Shown here piece by piece: positions 1,232 through 46,675 of a DNA stretch of 64,000 bases. How positions within the stretch are numbered: the stretch's first letter is position 1; each line of letters opens with the position of its first letter. Source of the DNA: Acidimicrobiia bacterium (GTDB lineage Bacteria > Actinomycetota > Acidimicrobiia > Acidimicrobiales > AC-14); contig JAHFUR010000003.1 of assembly GCA_023264995.1 (NCBI GenBank), forward strand, positions 62,001 to 126,000, written 5' to 3'. A program made the position numbers and the translations under genes. The notes beneath the pieces are model-generated. The model saw nothing but the letters and a program-made list of their open reading frames with translations. It was not told where the DNA came from and did no database searches.

Positions 1232-3259
1232 TCAGACCAGCAGCGGGTCGGCGATGACCTCGACCAGCGCCGGCCCGGGGTGGGCCAGCGCGTTGCCGAT
1301 GGCGCCGGCCAGTTGGTCGGCGGTTGACACGCGGTAGCCGGCCGCGCCGCAGAGCTGTGCGAAGGCGGCGAAGTCGGGGTTGTGGAGCCCGGTCTGCCAC
1401 ACGCTCCACTCCCCCGCCCGCTGCTCCTTGCTGATCTTGCCCAGTTCGCCGTTGTTGAGCAGCACGTGGGTGATGTTCATGCCGTACTTCACGGCGGTCG
1501 TGATCTCCATGGCGTACTGGCCGAAACCCCCGTCGCCGGAGATGCTCACGACGGGCCGGGCCGGCGCGTCGCTGCCCCGCCGGCGGTCGCCGACCGCCGC
1601 CCACGCTCCCATCGCCGCGGGGAAGGCGAAGCCGATGGAACCGAGGTAGCCGGACATCAGCACGTCCTGGCGGCCCGACACCTCGAAGTACCGGCCGAAC
1701 GAGTACGCGTTGTTCCCCACGTCGACGCAGAGCACCGCGTCCTCGGGCACCAATGTGCTCATGGCGTCGAACACCGCCGCCGAGTTCACGCCGCGGCCGA
1801 AGTCGTCCTGCCGCCGCCGGCGCTTCTCCTCCCGCCAGATGGCCCAACGCTCGGCGACTTCAGGGCGCTGGTCCACGCACGCCGGCCGCCCTGGGAGCGC
1901 CTCGGCCATCATCGCCGCGGCGACTCCGACGTCGCCCAGAACCGGTACTTCCACTGCGTGGAAACGGCCAAGCGCCATCGGGTCGAAGTCCACCTGCACG
2001 ATCGGCTTGTAGGCGGCGATGCCCGTGTGGTTGGAGAACGAGGCCCCAAAGGCGACGACGAGGTCGCACTCGTTCATGAACCAGGAGGCGATCGGCGTCC
2101 CACTGCGGCCGAGCACGCCGCAGCCCAGGGGGTGGTGATCGGAGATCTGGCCCTTGGCCTTGAACGTGGTGGCCACAGGGACCCCGAGGTGCTCGGCGAG
2201 GGCGACCACCGGCCCCATGTGGTGGCGAGCGCCGTTGCCGACGATGAACAGCGGCCGGCGGGCCGAGCTGACCCGGGCCACGGCCGCCGCCAGCGCGCCG
2301 GCCGGGGGCGCGATCGACCGGTCGGGTACCCGGCCGGTAGGCCCTCCCGCCTTGGCGTCGCCGGCCGGGCGGTTCTGCACCTCGTCAGGGAACACCAGGT
2401 GGGTGACGTCGCGCTCGAGCAGCGCCGTCTTGCAGGCCAGGTTGACCAGCTCGGCATGGTCGGACTCGCCGAGCACGCAATGGCTGGTGCGGGCCACAGC
2501 CGCGAAGGCCGCGTTCAGGTCGACGTCCTGGAAGGCGCCACGGCCGATGACCTTGGACGGCACCTGCCCCGAGAGCGCCAGCACGGGGGCCCGGTCGACC
2601 TTGGCGTCGTAGAGGCCGGTGAGGAGGTTGGTGGACCCGGGACCGGCGATGCCAAAGCACGCGGCCAGCCCGCCGGTGAGCTTGCCGTACGCGCTCGCGG
2701 CGAACGACGCCGCCCCCTCGTGGCGGATGCCCACGAAGCGCAGGTCGCCCCGCTCCTCGGCCGCCCGGAACGCGTCGGCCAGGCCCAGGTTCGAGTGCCC
2801 GACCATGCCGAAGACGTGGGAGACGCCCCAGTTGACCATCGTCTCGACCATCACATCGGAGACCGTCCGGGGCCGCTCCTCGTCCGGCGGCAGGGCCACG
2901 TACACGCCGTCGGCCCGCACCTCGGTCGGGTAGCTGGCCGGCGCGTCGCTGAACCCCGGCGGCGGGGTGCCGTTGCACGGCGAGTAGTCGTAGCCATGCC
3001 AGGGACAGCGGAGCCACCCCTTCTCGATGGACCCCTCGCCGAGCGGCCCGCCCTGGTGGGGGCAGCGGTTGTCCAGCGCGCCGTACCCGCCGCGGAAGTG
3101 GGTGAGAGCCAGCGAGCGCCGGCCGATGGAGACCGTCTTCACCCGGCCCTCGGGTAGTTCGTCCGGCGCAAGGGCCCGGTGCCATTCGTACCCGTCGGGC
3201 GGGAGCGCCGGCGACTCGAGCGACGGTTGGGGCAGGGCCCGGATGGGTGTGCCGGCCAC
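1232..3259 (-). CDS. Rieske-ThDP fusion enzyme (acetolactate synthase/pyruvate oxidase-like)
   Basis: A 675-residue protein with two parts. Residues about 20-125 are a Rieske [2Fe-2S] domain with Cys66-x-His68 and Cys85-x2-His88. Residues about 130-675 are a three-domain thiamine-diphosphate enzyme of the acetolactate synthase/pyruvate oxidase class: an N-terminal pyrimidine domain with the RHEGAASFAA activating-Glu region, a central domain, and a C-terminal GDG...NN cofactor motif (about 575-603). Start GTG 3259 is preceded by AGGAAGG and lies just after the stop of the flavoprotein gene; longer in-frame readings overlap that gene. The fusion suggests electrons from decarboxylated 2-oxoacids are passed to the cluster (inference). 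The upstream flavodoxin-fold reductase could be its redox partner. The substrate is unknown. Confidence 0.8.
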   Translation of the reverse strand: MAGTPIRALPQPSLESPALPPDGYEWHRALAPDELPEGRVKTVSIGRRSLALTHFRGGYGALDNRCPHQGGPLGEGSIEKGWLRCPWHGYDYSPCNGTPPPGFSDAPASYPTEVRADGVYVALPPDEERPRTVSDVMVETMVNWGVSHVFGMVGHSNLGLADAFRAAEERGDLRFVGIRHEGAASFAASAYGKLTGGLAACFGIAGPGSTNLLTGLYDAKVDRAPVLALSGQVPSKVIGRGAFQDVDLNAAFAAVARTSHCVLGESDHAELVNLACKTALLERDVTHLVFPDEVQNRPAGDAKAGGPTGRVPDRSIAPPAGALAAAVARVSSARRPLFIVGNGARHHMGPVVALAEHLGVPVATTFKAKGQISDHHPLGCGVLGRSGTPIASWFMNECDLVVAFGASFSNHTGIAAYKPIVQVDFDPMALGRFHAVEVPVLGDVGVAAAMMAEALPGRPACVDQRPEVAERWAIWREEKRRRRQDDFGRGVNSAAVFDAMSTLVPEDAVLCVDVGNNAYSFGRYFEVSGRQDVLMSGYLGSIGFAFPAAMGAWAAVGDRRRGSDAPARPVVSISGDGGFGQYAMEITTAVKYGMNITHVLLNNGELGKISKEQRAGEWSVWQTGLHNPDFAAFAQLCGAAGYRVSTADQLAGAIGNALAHPGPALVEVIADPLLV

Positions 3260-3288
3260 GGCGGACCGCCTTCCTGGTCCGACCGCGG

Positions 3289-4038
3289 TCAGCGGTGCTC
3301 GGGGTTGTCGAAGTCGAAGCGGCAGCCGGCGTCCCAGGCGGAGCGCTGGTTGCCGTGGGCCGGGATACCGCCGGCGTCCTTGAGCATCCGGGCCAGGTGC
3401 AGGAGGTTCCACGTCATGAAAGTGGTGTTGCGGTTCGTGAAGTCGTTGTCGGGCCCGCCCGAGCCCGGGTCCAGGTAGGACGGCCCGGGGCCAGCCTCGC
3501 CGATCCAGCCGGCGTCGGCCTGGGGCGGGATGACGTAGCCGAGGTGCTGGAGGGAGTAGAGGATGTTCATGGCGCAGTGCTTGACGCCGTCCTCGTTGCC
3601 GGTAATGAGGCAGCCGCCGATCCGGCCGTAGTAAGCGTACTGCCCGGCCTCGTTGAGCAGGTGGGAGTTGCCGTACAGCCGCTCGATGACCTGGGTGCAC
3701 ACCGACGTCTTCTCGCCGAGCCAGATGGCCGACGTCAGGACGAGGATGTCGGCCGCCTTCACCTGCTCGAAGATCTCAGGCCAGTCGTCACGCTCCCAGC
3801 CGTGCTCCTTCATGTCAGGCCACACCCCGGTGGCGATGTCACGGTCGATCGCCCGGATGACCTCGACGGTGACGCCCTGGCGGCGCATGATCTCGATAGA
3901 CCGGTCGGCCAGGCCCTGGGTGTGCGACGGCTCGGGTGACCGTTTCAGCGTGCAGTTGATGAACAGCGCCCGCAGGTCGCTGAAGTCCCAGCGGCTCTGC
4001 TGGCACAGTTCCTCCTGCATAGGAGAAAGCGCGGTCAT
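3289..4038 (-). CDS. Flavodoxin-fold NAD(P)H-dependent FMN reductase-like protein
   Basis: A 249-residue protein with the flavodoxin-like fold of NADPH-dependent FMN reductases: a beta-strand followed by a phosphate loop (NCTLKRSPEPSHTQ, residues about 29-42), a central ILVLTSAIWLGE strand-turn that would contact the flavin ring, and a C-terminal helix. ATG 4038 is preceded by GGAGGGGA. It lies 29 bases upstream of the Rieske/ThDP fusion gene on the same strand and is very likely co-transcribed with it, which makes it a candidate electron donor or acceptor for that enzyme (inference). Exact substrate unknown. Confidence 0.78.
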   Translation of the reverse strand: MTALSPMQEELCQQSRWDFSDLRALFINCTLKRSPEPSHTQGLADRSIEIMRRQGVTVEVIRAIDRDIATGVWPDMKEHGWERDDWPEIFEQVKAADILVLTSAIWLGEKTSVCTQVIERLYGNSHLLNEAGQYAYYGRIGGCLITGNEDGVKHCAMNILYSLQHLGYVIPPQADAGWIGEAGPGPSYLDPGSGGPDNDFTNRNTTFMTWNLLHLARMLKDAGGIPAHGNQRSAWDAGCRFDFDNPEHR

Positions 4039-39328: not shown

Positions 39329-41096
39329 GTACTCCACTCCCCGACGAACCGCCCTGCTCACCATCCTTGCCGCCGCAGTGGGGCTGGCCGGTGGGGGAAC
39401 GGCGTGGATCCTCCTGCACCTCATCGCTTTCATCACCAACGCCGCGGTTTTCGGCCGCCTCGGGTTCCACCCGCCGTCCTTTGCCGATCTCCATCCCAGC
39501 CCGAGAATCGTCGTCGTGGCCGTGCTCGGAGGGTTGCTCATCAGCCTTCTCGCCAAGTGGTCGCCCATCATCCGAGGCCACGGGATACCGGAGGCCATGG
39601 AGGCGGTGCTCACGAAGCAGAGCCGGATCGCACCTCGGACGGCACTGGCCAAGCCGCTTTCGGCCGCGATCGCCATCGGCACCTCGGCACCGTTCGGTGC
39701 GGAGGGGCCGATCATCGTGACCGGCGGGGCGATCGGGTCGTTGCTGGGCCAAGTCGTGCGGGTCTCACCCGCGGAGCGCAAGATTCTGCTGGCCTGTGGG
39801 GCGGCCGCCGGCATGTCGGCCACATTCGGGGCGCCACTCGCCGCTGTGATCCTGGCCATCGAGTTGCTCCTCTTCGAGTTCTCGGCCCGCGCCCTGGTCC
39901 CGCTGATCGTCGCATCGAGCATCGCCGGGGGCGTCCACAACGCACTCTTCGGGTCCGGTCCCCTGTTCTCGGTGCCGGTCCATGACTACGGCGGTCTCGG
40001 TGGGCTCCCATCGTTCGTGCTCCTCGGCCTGGCCTGCGGCCTTCTCGCCGTGGTCATCAGTCAAGGGCTCTTCGTGGTGGAGCGGCTCTACCGCCGTTTG
40101 CCCATCGGCGAGTTCTGGCATCCCATGATTGGCGCGGTGCTCTTCGCCTCGGTCGGTTTGATCGCGCCACGAGCCCTGGGCGTCGGCTACGACGCCATCG
40201 GTGACGTCCTGAACAGCCGACTCGCGCTCGGAACGATCGCGGTTCTGGGCCTGATCAAGCTCGTTTCATGGTGGCTCGCCCTGGGCTCGGGGACCTCGGG
40301 CGGCACGCTGGCGCCCATCCTCCTTATCAGCGCCGCGTTCGGAACGCTCTTCGGCACCGCCGTCAACCATCTCCTGCCGGGGGTCGACATTTCTCCCGGC
40401 GCGTTCGCCCTCGTGGCCATGGCCGCCACGTTCGGGGGGTCAACGCGAGCGACGTTCACGGCGATCGTGTTCGTGTTCGAGCTGACCCGTGACTACCAGG
40501 TCGTCATTCCGGTCATGCTCGCCACCGTGCTGGCCGACCTTGTCTTCAGTGCCCTCAGCGAACACAGCATCATGACCGAGAAGCTCAGCCACCGGGGTCT
40601 GCGAATCGGACGCCACTATGGAGTCGATCCCCTGACGACCTATCTCGTCAGTCAGGTCATGACATCAGCCGTGGCGACCATCTCGGCCACACTGACTGCG
40701 GGCGAGGCACGAGAGAAGTTCGTCAAGGGAGGCCACGGCGCCTACCCGATTCTGGACGGTGACGGCGTTATGGTCGGCATCCTGACTCGGGGCGACCTGC
40801 TGGACGCCGGCGTTGATGCGGGGGATTCCGTCCTCGAGCACGCGAGCCGCGACGTCGTCTCGGTCGGGCCCCGCGACAACGCGATGGCTGCGCTGGATGT
40901 CATGCTCGATGAAGGCGTCGAGCATGTTCCGGTGATCGCCGATGGCCGTCTCGTGGGCATTTGCACCCGAACGGATCTTCTCAAGGTCCGTCAAGAGCAG
41001 CGGACGTCCGAGGCACCTCAGGAACCCAGCCGCATCGCTCCAGGCCCTCCTCTTCGTCCCCGTCACCGTCGCGGGACTCGGGCGCCGATCAGATGA
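39327..41096 (+). CDS. CLC-type chloride channel/antiporter with CBS domains
   Basis: A 589-residue CLC protein. The ion-pathway motifs GTSAPFGAEGP, GSGTSGGTLAP and the GVDISPGAFALVAMAA region are present. The Glu in GAEGP is the gating glutamate. Two CBS domains (about 445-565) follow the membrane part and may bind nucleotides. ATG 39327 is used; no ribosome site precedes it, so it may be leaderless. The gene overlaps the convergent alternative oxidase gene by eight bases at its 3' end. Confidence 0.88.
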   Translation: MYSTPRRTALLTILAAAVGLAGGGTAWILLHLIAFITNAAVFGRLGFHPPSFADLHPSPRIVVVAVLGGLLISLLAKWSPIIRGHGIPEAMEAVLTKQSRIAPRTALAKPLSAAIAIGTSAPFGAEGPIIVTGGAIGSLLGQVVRVSPAERKILLACGAAAGMSATFGAPLAAVILAIELLLFEFSARALVPLIVASSIAGGVHNALFGSGPLFSVPVHDYGGLGGLPSFVLLGLACGLLAVVISQGLFVVERLYRRLPIGEFWHPMIGAVLFASVGLIAPRALGVGYDAIGDVLNSRLALGTIAVLGLIKLVSWWLALGSGTSGGTLAPILLISAAFGTLFGTAVNHLLPGVDISPGAFALVAMAATFGGSTRATFTAIVFVFELTRDYQVVIPVMLATVLADLVFSALSEHSIMTEKLSHRGLRIGRHYGVDPLTTYLVSQVMTSAVATISATLTAGEAREKFVKGGHGAYPILDGDGVMVGILTRGDLLDAGVDAGDSVLEHASRDVVSVGPRDNAMAALDVMLDEGVEHVPVIADGRLVGICTRTDLLKVRQEQRTSEAPQEPSRIAPGPPLRPRHRRGTRAPIR

Positions 41097-41697
41097 ACCG
41101 CGGCTCGTCCATGCGGTCCAGGCTCTCCTGCTTGTGGACCCGCTCGTCGTGGCCGATCTGGCGGAACAGGTCGGCCACCGACTCGTAGTGGCCGTACTCA
41201 TCGACAAAGAGACCGTCGTAGGGCCGGTTCTCCAGCTCGGGGGTTTCGTGGACGAACAGTGCGTACTCGTGCTCGGCGTGATCCTCGAAGTCGGCGTTCA
41301 GCCCGTAGCTCCACCGCGGGTTCAAGGCGTAGAGAAGCCATGAGAGCTGGTAGTAGGCGAAGGCCAGTGCCTGCGGAACAACGCGGTAGCGGAGGAAGCT
41401 CTCGCGTTTGCCCGACGCCTCCACCAACTCTTCGAGGATCAGCAGGTGCCACTGTTCGTTGTCCTGCTGTTCCCAGCTCTCGTGGACCCGCTCGAAGATG
41501 CGGCGAGCGAATGTCGGGCGCGAGTACCGATGAGTCACGGCGACGTAGGCGACGTTCTCCCACGCCTGGTAGGGCACGCGGGCGACCACCTCGAGCACCT
41601 TGAACTTCGAGAGGGTACGGGAACGTCTGTACAGGAGGTCCAAGAGCGTGAAGAGCACACGGGCGGCGGGACCATAGCGGCGCCTGGGCGATGCCAT
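41089..41697 (-). CDS. Alternative oxidase (plastid terminal oxidase-like) diiron quinol oxidase
   Basis: A 202-residue protein resembling the AOX/PTOX family. All six expected diiron ligands can be placed: Glu36 (LEVVARVP), Glu81 and His84 (NEQWHLLI), Glu139 (FEDHAEHEY), Glu185 and His188 (HDERVHKQ). The segments LSWLLYALNPRWSYG and ALFVHETPEL also match PTOX. It would oxidise quinol and reduce oxygen to water without proton pumping. A longer in-frame start (GTG 41799) would place a CRP-type palindrome in the coding region, so ATG 41697 is preferred. Confidence 0.8.
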   Translation of the reverse strand: MASPRRRYGPAARVLFTLLDLLYRRSRTLSKFKVLEVVARVPYQAWENVAYVAVTHRYSRPTFARRIFERVHESWEQQDNEQWHLLILEELVEASGKRESFLRYRVVPQALAFAYYQLSWLLYALNPRWSYGLNADFEDHAEHEYALFVHETPELENRPYDGLFVDEYGHYESVADLFRQIGHDERVHKQESLDRMDEPRFI

Positions 41698-41784
41698 GGT
41701 CACCGCCTGCTCCGCCTTGAGGTCGGGTGCGGTCAGCTTCGGGGGCGGTCCGGTCGGTGACGAGCGGGCCTCTTCTGCGCCATT

Positions 41785-41800
41785 TGTGAACCTGTTCACA
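41785..41800. promoter_or_regulatory. CRP/FNR-type palindrome TGTGA-N6-TCACA
   Basis: TGTGAACCTGTTCACA is a seven-base inverted repeat with a two-base spacer and fits the CRP consensus exactly. It lies 88 bases upstream of the preferred alternative oxidase start. Confidence 0.55.
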
Positions 41801-42030: not shown

Positions 42031-43497
42031 CTACGAGGAGCGCGGTGGGGTCCGCTTTGGACTAGGAGTAGCGAGAGCGGTGAGACGCGGCTTGTATGAC
42101 GGTGGCACGTGAGCGTTTCTCGAGGGCCCGTCCAGTCGCAGCCCCACGAGGCACATGTCGTCGTCCCGCCGAAGGCCGGTGGTGCAGGCGCTCAGGATGA
42201 AATCACAGAGGTCGTCCAACTGCTGGGGACCATCGGTGACGGCCATTCGGAGGCGCTCCAGCCCGACGGTCCGGGACGTTGCCCGACTTTCGACCAACCC
42301 GTCCGTGAACAGCATCAGAGTCGACCCCCGATCGAGGCGTAGGGTCGCCTCCGGACGGTCGACCCCGACCATTGCGCCGACGGCGTCCGAACGGGCGGTG
42401 TCGATGAAGCGGGCATGCGACGCCGCCCGGTCCAGCACCAATGGAGGACAGCCTCCGGCGTTGGAGAAGCGGATCTCGCCGGTGTCGGGATGCAGCGTCA
42501 AGTAGAGAACGCGAGCCAGTTGACCCAGCCCGGTCGTCTCCGCGAGCCGATCGAGGTGTTGCATCACGCGGACCGGGGAGTCGCCGTCGATGGCGGCGTA
42601 GGCCCGGGCCGCAGCCCGCAGGTCGCTCATGATCGGCGCCACTTCGACGCCACGGCCGGCGACGTTGCCGATCACGATTCCCAGACCGCCGCTCCCGAGG
42701 GGAACAGCGTCGACCCAGTCACCACCGCAGCCGACGAAAACGCCCCACGGGTGAACCCGGCCGGCGAGCGTCACCCCATGGGCGTCTGACCACCCCCTGT
42801 CCAGCAACGCGGGCGACCGGCCGACCTCATGGCGTGCCTGGGCATGGTCCCGGGCGTAGTCGATCAGCTCGGCCATGTCCTCGCTCGGTTCCGCTGAGCG
42901 TGGAGCGCCGGCGGTGGCGGGGGTATCGGAAACCTCGACCAGCGAGGCGTCCGCAGCTTCGAAGTGACGAGAGCCGCCGGCGCTTCCGGCGATACCGACG
43001 AGCTCCTCGCGAACCATGTCCAGGATCGGGTCGAAGCACTCGGCCAAGAGGTCGCTGAAGCCGATGCCGAACTCAGCCTCGGCGGGCTCGATCTCGATGA
43101 TGACGGTGTCGACCGGCAGGCCCCCCCAGTGACGGGCCATGGCCAGGGTGTGGTCGAGGTCAACCATGCCCATCGCGGACTCTTCAAGGCTGCGATGGAC
43201 GTCAGCGGGCGCGGGCGGCGTGAGGTCCACGCGGTAGCGGCGCAGCGTCGCCGGCGGATCGAACTCCCGGGGCACTGCCCCCAGGAGGACGACCTTGGCC
43301 GGTCGCAACTCCTGGAGGCGGTGCAGGACGAGCGGGGCGGAGCAGGAAAGGTCCTCGACTACCACCCCGTCGGGCCAGTCCAGATGCTGGAGGTAGTCGA
43401 TGACCTGTCGCCCGAAATCCAAGTCCCGCATGCCCGGTCGCCCGAAGCCGCCGACGAGGGCGCGGCAGGCGGTGGTCTTCCCGTCGGTGGCGGTCAT
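42031..43497 (-). CDS. Hydrogenase maturation protease-like domain fused to SpoIIE/PP2C-type phosphatase domain
   Basis: A 488-residue fusion. Residues about 10-168 resemble hydrogenase maturation endopeptidases (HybD/HycI, M52): LVGGFGRPGMRDLDFG, VVVEDLS, the His-bearing DLDHTLAMARHWGGLPVD and IIEIEPAEAEFGIGFSD. The usual acidic residue of the central DA motif appears as Gly (LLGAVP). Residues about 255-455 are a PP2C-like SpoIIE domain: GGDWVDAVPL (Asp260), GNVAGRG (277-283; the normal metal Asp is Asn), NAGGCPP, FTDGLVES (Asp399) and DDDMCLVGL. It starts four bases inside the end of hydrogenase copy 1, so it is coupled to it. Role proposed: large-subunit processing linked to Ser/Thr-phosphatase signalling. 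The altered residues leave both activities open. Confidence 0.75.
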   Translation of the reverse strand: MTATDGKTTACRALVGGFGRPGMRDLDFGRQVIDYLQHLDWPDGVVVEDLSCSAPLVLHRLQELRPAKVVLLGAVPREFDPPATLRRYRVDLTPPAPADVHRSLEESAMGMVDLDHTLAMARHWGGLPVDTVIIEIEPAEAEFGIGFSDLLAECFDPILDMVREELVGIAGSAGGSRHFEAADASLVEVSDTPATAGAPRSAEPSEDMAELIDYARDHAQARHEVGRSPALLDRGWSDAHGVTLAGRVHPWGVFVGCGGDWVDAVPLGSGGLGIVIGNVAGRGVEVAPIMSDLRAAARAYAAIDGDSPVRVMQHLDRLAETTGLGQLARVLYLTLHPDTGEIRFSNAGGCPPLVLDRAASHARFIDTARSDAVGAMVGVDRPEATLRLDRGSTLMLFTDGLVESRATSRTVGLERLRMAVTDGPQQLDDLCDFILSACTTGLRRDDDMCLVGLRLDGPSRNAHVPPSYKPRLTALATPSPKRTPPRSS

Positions 43498-45374
43498 TCC
43501 AGGGTGCAGCCGCAGGAGTTGATCTCCCGGGTGATGATGCCCTTGCCGGTGTCCATGTGGGTGGTGCAGGGCATGCAGGGGTCGAAGCTGCGGATGGCCC
43601 GCAGGACGTCGATGCCCTTGATCTGGTCGTCGGGGACCGACTCCAGGATGGGGGTGTCGACGATGGCCTGCTCGTAGGGGCCGAGGCCACCGAAGGGGTC
43701 GGTGGGGGAGGCGTTGAGCGTGGAGGGGGTGTTGATCTGGTAGTTCACGATCTTGCCCTTGTCGATGATCATGTGGTGGGTCAGGTAGCCGCGGCTCGCC
43801 TCCCAGAACCCGACTGCCACCCGCTCGTCACGGGGGATCTTGAACGGGGTGTGGACCCTGGTCTCGCCCTTGCGCCAGTACTCGAACGCCTTGAGCAGGC
43901 AGTTCATGCCGATGGTGGCGGTGAAGGCCATGGCGTAGGCCCGGCCCCGGTTGCGCTCGAGAGCGTTCAGCGTCCTTGGCAGCGGCCAGAACAGCTCGGT
44001 CTCGGGCAGCAGGTTGCGGGGCAGGACCAGACGCAACCCGTCGCCGGTGGGCTCACAGAAGGGGTTCTCGGCGTAGTCGCCCCGCAGGGCCGTGCCCCAC
44101 AGCTGGCCGTAGGCGCCGGTCTCGACGGTCTGGCGGTCCCAGCGGGGGGCGGTGGACCAGGTGTACTTCTCCTTGAAGTTCGTGCCGGCGGGCTTGGGCA
44201 GGGTGGTCTTGTTCCACGCGTGGTAGGGCGACAGCGGGTTGCCCAGGGCGTCGGTCTGGTAGCGCTGGGGGCCGGTCTTGGTCCAGTCGTCGTAGAAGGA
44301 GTGCTCGATGAACTCTTCCATGCCGATGTTGATGTCGGTCAGGTTGGTGGTAATCAGCTTGCCCTCGAGGATCACGGCGGGGGTGGCCCATCGAGCGTTG
44401 CCCCATTGGTTGATGTTGGAGTACGTGGCGTCGTAGACCTCGGAGTCGTCCCAGATGCCGGTCTGGATAAGGCTGGTGGGGCGGGCCCCTACCTGCTCAT
44501 ACGCCGGGTTGGCCTCCAGGAAGAAGTCGCACAGGTCGTCCCAGATCTTGCAGATGACCTTGCACCAGTCGATGATCTTGCCCAGCTGGGTGTAGTACTC
44601 GTTGAACGTCGAGGTGGTCACCGTCGTCGACATGCCACCGGGGACGATGGTGCTCGGGTGCGGGAACTTGCCGAACATCAACATGCACAGGATGCGCCCG
44701 ACCCGCGTCCACTCCAGCGCCTCCAGGTAGATCTTGCCGGTGAGGGGGTTGAGCGCGTCCATGAGATCCTTCATGGTCGTGTAGCCATGGAGATCCCCGT
44801 TCGCGGCCAGGGTCTTCTCGGCCCGGGTCACCAGCTCAGGGTTGGTCACGCTGACCAGGGCGGTGGAGTAGTCGGGGCCGGCCAGCAGTCCGAGGTGCAG
44901 GGGGCGGTCATAGAACATCTCACCCACCTCGCCCAGGTTGCGCACCTCCACGCCCAGTGGCGGGGGGCAGATGCCGAAGGCCTGCTCGATGCAGAGCGCC
45001 GACACCGACGCATGGACACCGCCACAGACCCCGCAGGCGCGCGACGAGATGTCGATGGCGTCGCGGGGGTCGCGGCCCTCGAGGATGACCTCATAGCCCC
45101 GGAAGAGCATGGCCCGAGCGTGGGCGTCGACGGCCCGGCGGTTCTCCAGGTCGAGCACGGTGTGCACGGCCAGGGCGCCGGCGACGCGGGTCATGGGGTC
45201 GATGTTCCAGTCCCGGAGGCGGGGCGGGGCGGCCAGCTGCGCCCCCGGGCCTCCCTCGCGGCGCACGAAGCCCTTGGGCTCGGCCACGGTCACCGAGTAG
45301 GGATCGGCGACACCCGACTTGAGCCGGGCCTTACCGGAGCTGTCGAACTCGACGGGCAGGTTCTTGAAGCACAC
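43494..45374 (-). CDS. hhyL: [NiFe]-hydrogenase large subunit, actinobacterial (group 1h/5) type, copy 1
   Basis: A 626-residue large subunit. The N-terminal nickel motif is Arg112-Ala-Cys114-Gly-Val-Cys117, then His121; the C-terminal motif is DPC600-x2-C603-TTH606, followed by a 20-residue tail ending SCGCTLE that a maturation protease would remove. Length and sequence fit the high-affinity, oxygen-tolerant H2-uptake enzymes of actinomycetes. GTG 45374 has AGAGGAG upstream; its counterpart in copy 2 starts at the same residue. No small-subunit gene is adjacent. It is divergent from an XRE/cupin regulator and overlaps the protease-phosphatase gene. Confidence 0.9.
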   Translation of the reverse strand: MCFKNLPVEFDSSGKARLKSGVADPYSVTVAEPKGFVRREGGPGAQLAAPPRLRDWNIDPMTRVAGALAVHTVLDLENRRAVDAHARAMLFRGYEVILEGRDPRDAIDISSRACGVCGGVHASVSALCIEQAFGICPPPLGVEVRNLGEVGEMFYDRPLHLGLLAGPDYSTALVSVTNPELVTRAEKTLAANGDLHGYTTMKDLMDALNPLTGKIYLEALEWTRVGRILCMLMFGKFPHPSTIVPGGMSTTVTTSTFNEYYTQLGKIIDWCKVICKIWDDLCDFFLEANPAYEQVGARPTSLIQTGIWDDSEVYDATYSNINQWGNARWATPAVILEGKLITTNLTDINIGMEEFIEHSFYDDWTKTGPQRYQTDALGNPLSPYHAWNKTTLPKPAGTNFKEKYTWSTAPRWDRQTVETGAYGQLWGTALRGDYAENPFCEPTGDGLRLVLPRNLLPETELFWPLPRTLNALERNRGRAYAMAFTATIGMNCLLKAFEYWRKGETRVHTPFKIPRDERVAVGFWEASRGYLTHHMIIDKGKIVNYQINTPSTLNASPTDPFGGLGPYEQAIVDTPILESVPDDQIKGIDVLRAIRSFDPCMPCTTHMDTGKGIITREINSCGCTLE

Positions 45375-45458
45375 GGGACGCTCCTCTGATGCGTGGAAGA
45401 GGTGAGACTCTCTGCCGCCCACCCTCGCAGACCGCTGCTGCATATGGCTAGAAGCATA

Positions 45459-45470
45459 AGCAGTGCTGCT
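45459..45470. promoter_or_regulatory. Inverted repeat AGCAG-TG-CTGCT in the hydrogenase copy 1/regulator gap
   Basis: This twelve-base imperfect palindrome lies in the 128-base region between the divergent hydrogenase and regulator genes, with further GCTGCT copies nearby. It is a candidate operator for the XRE-type regulator. Confidence 0.35.
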
Positions 45471-45502
45471 ATTGTGGGCAGCTCGCTCTGGGAGGAGACG
45501 AC

Positions 45503-46675
45503 ATGGGAGCCATGAATGACCGAGTGTCGAGCGGAGTGCCCGATGTCGACGCACTCCTCGGAGGCCTCCTCCTCGGGGACAACGTGGTCTGGGTTCTGGA
45601 GAACGCCGAGGTGGCGCGCCGCCTCGAGGACGCCATGCTGGGTGAAGCGGCAGCCCGAGGCGAGGGCTGCTTGTACGTGAGTGTCAGTGCCCAACAGGCT
45701 CAGCTACGGGCCCGCCTTGGTGCCGGCGTCACCGTTCTTGACGCCCGACCGCGAGGCCCCTACGGCGATGCTGCGATGCTGGAGACGACGATCATCGAGG
45801 CAGCCCGCAGTCACCCGCCGGGTTACGTCGTCGTTGATGGTCTGGCCCAGTTCGCCCGCCGATGGGGCGCGGCCAAGGCGATCGCCTTCTTCAGCCGCGT
45901 GTGCCCGAGACTGTTCGATCTCGGGGCGGTGGCCTACTGGCGAGCGCCCCGGAGCGCGCTCGGCCCGTCGTTCATCGACCAGGTCACGAGCGTGACCCAA
46001 TGCGTGCTCGAGATCAGCGACGGCCATTTACGGGTCGTGAAGGCCGAGGGCCGTCCCTCGTCGGTCCAGGCCCGGCTGCTGCGCTTGGAGGTGAGCGACG
46101 GGACGGTACGCCTCCATGACGAACGGGCTCTCGGTCGCCTCGGGCAGGGATTGGAGCGCGTCCGACGGGAACGCAACCTCAGCCAGACCGATCTGGCCAG
46201 CCTGGCCGGGGTCACCCAGAGTGCGATCTCCCAGGCCGAGGCGGGCCGACGAGGCCTTTCGCTGGACACCCTCCTGCTGCTTTCAGAGCGCCTGAACATT
46301 GGTATCGACGATCTCCTGGCCTCCGCACCCCCTGGGGGCCACGTGCTTGCTCGGAGGCCCAGGACCCTCGTCGATCCTCTGACCTCCCTCCTCGATGATC
46401 CTCAGGTGGGCTCGCGCGTCTACCTCGTCCGGCTGGGACCGGGAGAGGCCGGAGCGCCCGACTTCCTCCACAAAGGAGTGGAGCTCGTCCTTGTGGCCTC
46501 CGGACTTGTTCAGATCACGATCGGCACAGACACCCCAGTCATGCGGGCCGGCGATGCTGCACTGGCCACGACCGTGGCGGTGTCGGGATGGCGGAACCTG
46601 ATCAACACCCCCGCACTCCTCTTTTGGGTCCTGCGCGACGAACCTCAAGGACGTCCGCGAAGGGCCCGTCTGTAG
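45503..46675 (+). CDS. Regulator with degenerate KaiC/RecA-like domain, XRE HTH and cupin
   Basis: A 390-residue three-domain protein. About 1-190 follows the KaiC/RecA pattern (RVSSGVPDVDALLGG start, VVVDGLAQFARR Walker B-like strand), but the Walker A loop is gone: GLLLGDNVVWVLEN has no GKT. About 215-272 is an XRE-type HTH (RRERNLSQTDLASLAGVTQS, AISQAEAGRRGLSL). About 303-378 is a cupin sensor. ATG 45503 follows GGGAGGAGACG. Being divergent from hydrogenase copy 1, it is its likely regulator. The N-terminal domain probably senses or dimerises rather than hydrolyses ATP. Confidence 0.75.
   Translation: MGAMNDRVSSGVPDVDALLGGLLLGDNVVWVLENAEVARRLEDAMLGEAAARGEGCLYVSVSAQQAQLRARLGAGVTVLDARPRGPYGDAAMLETTIIEAARSHPPGYVVVDGLAQFARRWGAAKAIAFFSRVCPRLFDLGAVAYWRAPRSALGPSFIDQVTSVTQCVLEISDGHLRVVKAEGRPSSVQARLLRLEVSDGTVRLHDERALGRLGQGLERVRRERNLSQTDLASLAGVTQSAISQAEAGRRGLSLDTLLLLSERLNIGIDDLLASAPPGGHVLARRPRTLVDPLTSLLDDPQVGSRVYLVRLGPGEAGAPDFLHKGVELVLVASGLVQITIGTDTPVMRAGDAALATTVAVSGWRNLINTPALLFWVLRDEPQGRPRRARL

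Follow-up and report, generated by a model that had tools for sequence, protein, structure and literature searches.

An M52-like domain fused to a SpoIIE-type PP2C domain and encoded with an orphan group 1h [NiFe]-hydrogenase large subunit in Acidimicrobiia

The stretch of DNA analysed here (the window, 64,000 nucleotides of an Acidimicrobiia contig) encodes a protein that joins an M52-like domain, homologous to hydrogenase maturation peptidases, to a SpoIIE-type PP2C domain. Its gene overlaps that of an orphan group 1h [NiFe]-hydrogenase large subunit, HhyL2, and the pair is divergent from a gene for an XRE/cupin regulator (Table 1). The window protein has substitutions at metal-ligand positions in both halves, the module is conserved in other genomes, both domains are under purifying selection, and the fusion most likely has a single origin. 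This architecture and the anatomy of the module are well supported. We propose, with about an even chance of being right, that the protein is a double pseudoenzyme adaptor linked to hydrogenase maturation, in which a non-catalytic HhyL-binding domain is coupled to an interaction domain of PP2C fold.

Table 1. Features of the fusion gene and its surroundings in the window.
Feature	Position	Strand	Remarks
Fusion protein (488 aa), M52-like and SpoIIE/PP2C domains joined by a low-complexity linker	42031..43497	-	HMM matches and full-length homologues
N-domain, M52-like, residues 14-166	43000..43458	-	Leu26/Gly73/Gly110 at HybD Glu16/Asp62/His93 positions
C-domain, SpoIIE-type PP2C, residues 269-455	42133..42693	-	Asn278 at metal-binding Asp (SpoIIE D628)
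hhyL2, orphan group 1h [NiFe]-hydrogenase large subunit, 626 aa, GTG start	43494..45374	-	no adjoining hhyS
Divergent promoter region between hhyL2 and regulator, 128 bp	45375..45502	.	
Operator-like motif TAAGCAGTGCT (TWAGC-N3-GCT)	45457..45467	+	single copy in window
Divergent transcriptional regulator: ~200-aa N-terminal region without recognised fold, XRE HTH, cupin	45503..46675	+	

Architecture and metal sites of the fusion protein

The reading frame is unbroken along its whole length. The TIGR00072 model (hydrogenase maturation protease) matches residues 14-166 (hmmscan, E 8e-13, 48.6 bits, above the curated cut-off of 47.45 bits), and PF07228 (SpoIIE) matches residues 269-455 (E 3e-32); the Pfam model HycI matches the N-domain more weakly, under its own cut-off. 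A sequence search of the PDB returned 5TTX, a hydrogenase maturation peptidase, and 3KE6, the RsbU domain of Rv1364c. In an AF2 model, pLDDT is ∼90 for the N-domain and ∼80 for much of the PP2C domain, while the linker is disordered. Foldseek aligned the N-domain of this model with 5TTX, 1CFZ (HybD) and HycI, and the C-domain with RsbU (the best match), RssB and SpoIIE. The N-domain is thus homologous to M52 peptidases by HMM, sequence and fold, and the C-domain shares homology and fold with SpoIIE/RsbU phosphatases. An assembly join of two genes is ruled out by full-length homologues from independent assemblies, and two separately translated genes by coding GC3 in both halves and the absence of a stop or frameshift between the domains. 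The fusion postulated in the original prediction, including the M52 affinity of its N-terminal half, is therefore real. No published description of it was found in the literature searched, which left most subscription journals outside its reach, and the architecture is new to these sources, as that prediction had supposed.

Fold and whole-length sequence similarity are shared with the M52 endopeptidases (HybD, HycI, HupD; 1CFZ, 5TTX), but the metal ligands are not. HybD binds metal through Glu16, Asp62 and His93 (PMC2670836). In an alignment of 101 sequences plus HybD, covering the first two positions, the Glu16 position is Leu in 49/50 stand-alone homologues of the N-domain and in all six fusions, and the Asp62 position is Gly in 46 of the 50 stand-alones and again in all six fusions; canonical M52 proteins carry Asp at both (45/45). 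Since the MAFFT column for His93 is unreliable, this third position was assigned from the 5TTX alignment, which places it at Gly110, invariant in alignments of the N-domain family, and from ungapped spacing, which places it at the conserved Pro128. The family therefore carries Leu/Gly/Gly where M52 enzymes carry Glu/Asp/His. The glycine in the protease DA motif, which had been singled out as a changed catalytic position, is present (G73) but characterizes the family rather than the fusion. Judged by these replacements, the N-domain family is best read as a pseudo-peptidase. It has its own invariant residues, D25, D27, D113, D115 and H116, which could form a different metal site; H116 is missing from more distant homologues.

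The genomic context of the stand-alone relatives fits the same distinction. As far as the contigs reach, canonical group 1h loci read hhyS, hhyL, the stand-alone N-domain homologue, hhyE (NifU-like; it takes its name from the protein of M. smegmatis, PMC6883350) and a canonical M52 gene. Nearly all surveyed group 1h operons encode both a stand-alone homologue and a distinct canonical M52 protease, and, unlike either, the fusion N-domain is joined to a PP2C domain. In loci L082-L125, and in most of the remaining group 1h loci, the M52-like protein encoded immediately 3' of hhyL lacks the M52 metal-ligand residues; such proteins can pass the TIGR00072 threshold, and annotations may commonly name them as the maturation protease. 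A diverged lone copy (L126:6001-6465) lies in a 12-kb locus with no group 1h hydrogenase gene. In the window's own genome, contig C5 carries the end of a canonical operon, with a stand-alone homologue (237-719) and a canonical M52 gene (2159-2614), and contig C45 encodes another M52 protein.

The C-domain shares fold and the GGDWxD, TDG and DDD motifs with SpoIIE/RsbU phosphatases (Rv1364c RsbU domain, 3KE6; SpoIIE, 5UCG), whose metal site involves D628, D746 and D795 of SpoIIE (PMC5468089). The window protein departs from them in having Asn for the metal-binding Asp of GDVxGHG (N278, GNVAGRG), the second change originally noted, so that its metal site is incomplete although its GGD, TDG and DDD motifs remain. 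The D628 position is likewise Asn in L051 and is Lys in L050; in L081 and L175 it is the D746 position that is changed, to Ala. A metal-binding Asp is therefore lost, at one of two positions, in 5/6 fusions, against 0/33 SpoIIE domains of the same class that are not part of such a fusion, where every metal-site Asp is kept. These losses probably represent no more than two or three independent events, so the 5/6 count does not amount to six independent data points. Unlike the family-wide change in the N-domain, the Asp loss is specific to the fusions. The exception is L052 (genome G400), the sole fusion with every PP2C metal residue, and catalysis may therefore be used in some lineages. The suspicion that one or both halves are sensors fits this loss of catalytic residues.

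Occurrence, origin and selection

Six intact fusions were found in five Acidimicrobiales-type MAGs of soil-type bacteria, together with one truncated copy; an alignment query recovered the fusion copies from genome contigs, whereas a single-protein query matched none. This recurrence in independent assemblies answers the earlier concern about an assembly artefact. Within the window's genus, G396 holds two full-length copies; G400 (L052) represents a different genus of the same family, and JAHWJH010000055, evidently identical to the G955 record, a genome from outside that family but within the order. A further full-length copy lies on a 4.7-kb contig of G560, a bin assigned to another class, where misbinning and transfer are indistinguishable. 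In a sample of 397 genomes of the order, 32 encode an N-domain homologue (E <= 1e-20), and among these four hold intact fusions and one a truncated copy. The truncated gene, in G395 of the same genus (L053:2300-2800), ends after ∼90 residues and is followed by unrelated sequence. Because of this truncation and a 16-aa deletion in the L051 fusion, the gene is dispensable in places.

The N-domains of the fusions form one clade (support 100/99), separate from the stand-alone proteins of their hosts, so that the fusion most likely arose once. Between close fusions, dN/dS is ∼0.2 for the N-domain, 0.28-0.40 for the PP2C domain and 0.26-1.2 for the linker; between genera it is higher and less reliable (0.55-0.65), but still below 1. 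The low values between close fusions suggest that a non-catalytic function has been kept.

The orphan hydrogenase gene and the divergent regulator

The start codon of the fusion gene and the stop codon of hhyL2 share the sequence ATGA, confirming the predicted overlap with a hydrogenase gene as one of 4 bp. The same arrangement occurs at four loci (window, L050, L051 and L053). HhyL2 belongs to group 1h by homology to HhyL, both CxxC motifs and a C-terminal extension, HMDTGKGIITREINSCGCTLE, retained after DPCMPCTTH. It is about 64-91% identical to other full-length HhyL proteins of the class and retains almost every residue invariant in canonical HhyL. No hhyS lies beside it in the window, L050, L052, L053 or L175. 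Wherever flanking sequence is present, each intact fusion lies downstream of an hhyL copy and no hhyS, hhyE or M52 gene accompanies the module; where the contig extends far enough, the hhyL copy and the regulator gene, the same one each time, are divergently oriented. The module resembles the regulatory [NiFe] hydrogenases (HupUV/HoxBC) in idea, as a hydrogenase-derived sensor beside a signalling domain. Unlike those systems, whose large subunit lacks the extension and is accompanied by a small subunit, it has a large subunit alone with the extension kept, and no histidine kinase.

In a tree of HhyL sequences, in which the HhyL1 sequences are partial since contigs break within hhyL1, the HhyL2 proteins are not one clade: that of G400 pairs with G400 HhyL1 (100/100), and those of the window's genus group with G396 HhyL1 (100/99). 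As the fusion has a single origin, yet HhyL2 tracks the HhyL1 of its host, the tree is most simply explained by gene conversion between the two hhyL genes, the alternative being repeated replacement. Gene conversion is also a likely cause of the contig breaks in hhyL1.

The motif TWAGC-N3-GCT was chosen from the hhyL2/regulator intergenic regions of the five modules examined (5/5), so that eleven other Acidimicrobiia (L145-L155), in which it stands just 5' of the homologous regulator gene in every case, form an independent test. It thus precedes the XRE/cupin regulator in 16/16 loci and is absent before canonical hhyS in the host genomes; 480 kb of sequence from other loci contains it twice. 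Given its presence at the regulator genes and its absence before hhyS, the motif is most likely the regulator's own operator, and what the regulator controls here is most likely the module rather than the operon of the main hydrogenase. A role as general hydrogenase regulator was rejected, as none of its homologues in the eleven other genomes lies close to group 1h hydrogenase genes and the motif is missing ahead of canonical hhyS. A KaiC-like N-terminal region of the regulator, suspected by eye, found no support in Pfam or PDB profile searches. This dedicated regulator, the orphan status of hhyL2 and the recurrent PP2C Asp loss all lay outside the original prediction.

Just downstream of the fusion gene (41089-41799, minus strand), an alternative-oxidase family protein (PF01786) is encoded in this bacterium. 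It was left out of the module because the other fusion loci lack it. Elsewhere in the window, an 822-aa ORF (1232-3700, minus strand) has a complete thiamine-pyrophosphate enzyme C-terminal to a Rieske domain, an unusual pairing.

Candidate function and alternatives

In the adaptor reading, the N-domain would derive from the M52-like, non-proteolytic protein encoded alongside group 1h hydrogenases and their true M52 protease, and would most likely bind immature HhyL without cutting it, as its stand-alone relatives presumably do. With a metal ligand lost in most fusions, the C-domain, of RsbU/SpoIIE fold, would most likely bind a partner rather than dephosphorylate it; by analogy, that partner could be a STAS anti-sigma antagonist, although no STAS, anti-sigma or interaction-partner gene adjoining the fusion was seen at the locus. 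RssB, which matches in fold, offers a precedent: it too combines a regulatory domain with a PP2C-fold domain and serves as an adaptor for which phosphatase activity is not required (PMC5468089). Its input is a response-regulator receiver, and those of SpoIIE/RsbU phosphatases are PAS, GAF, receiver or transmembrane domains, whereas the fusion has an M52-like input. The fusion is translationally coupled to a spare copy of HhyL, and the pair has an XRE/cupin regulator of its own. The fusion would therefore signal how far HhyL has matured, or how great its load is, to a regulatory pathway, whether partner-switching or another; HhyL binding, the identity of the partner, the direction of signalling and a partner-switching output are all inferred.

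A maturation protease fused to a phosphatase and cleaving the adjoining HhyL, as originally envisaged, would account for the TIGR00072 score above cut-off and the overlap with an hhyL gene that still encodes its C-terminal extension, but it is highly improbable: the family as a whole has replacements at all three M52 metal-ligand positions, and canonical M52 genes are encoded elsewhere in the same genome. An active phosphatase is easier to entertain, though still unlikely. Here the N-domain would sense HhyL and the C-domain would dephosphorylate an anti-sigma antagonist, in keeping with the best fold match to RsbU, the GGD, TDG and DDD motifs intact in the window protein and the complete metal site of L052; it conflicts with the loss of the D628 equivalent in the window, L050 and L051 and of the D746 equivalent in L081 and L175, when both residues are present in 33/33 ordinary SpoIIE domains.

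Two further readings can be set beside these. The fusion could chaperone a second pool of HhyL as a reserve for main-operon HhyS, its PP2C domain only anchoring or stabilising it; HhyL2 keeps almost all canonical invariants and groups with the host HhyL1, and no other partner was found. We regard this as decidedly doubtful, as it leaves unexplained why an RsbU-type domain was recruited and kept under purifying selection. Nor do we favour decay of an accessory gene that lost its role after hhyL duplication, an improbable reading despite the truncation in G395, the L051 deletion, the Asp losses and the fast-evolving linker: close fusions give dN/dS values well under 1 for both domains, the module and its operator are preserved across several genera, and the coding pattern retains high GC3.

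The adaptor reading admits a more specific and rather unlikely form, a maturation-checkpoint sensor. The orphan HhyL, kept similar to the functional copy by gene conversion, would serve as a probe for nickel loading or folding, read by the non-proteolytic M52 domain and relayed through the pseudo-phosphatase to sigma-factor partner-switching. If so, transcription for stress or persistence would be tied to the capacity for atmospheric hydrogen oxidation. More broadly, the fusion brings together two enzyme families between which no link is known, and it suggests that the maturation state of a hydrogenase can feed into regulation. The operons of the atmospheric H2-oxidising group 1h enzymes generally hold a conserved M52-like protein without the protease metal ligands, and which M52-type protein trims HhyL, and what the other does, is a testable question for all group 1h hydrogenases.
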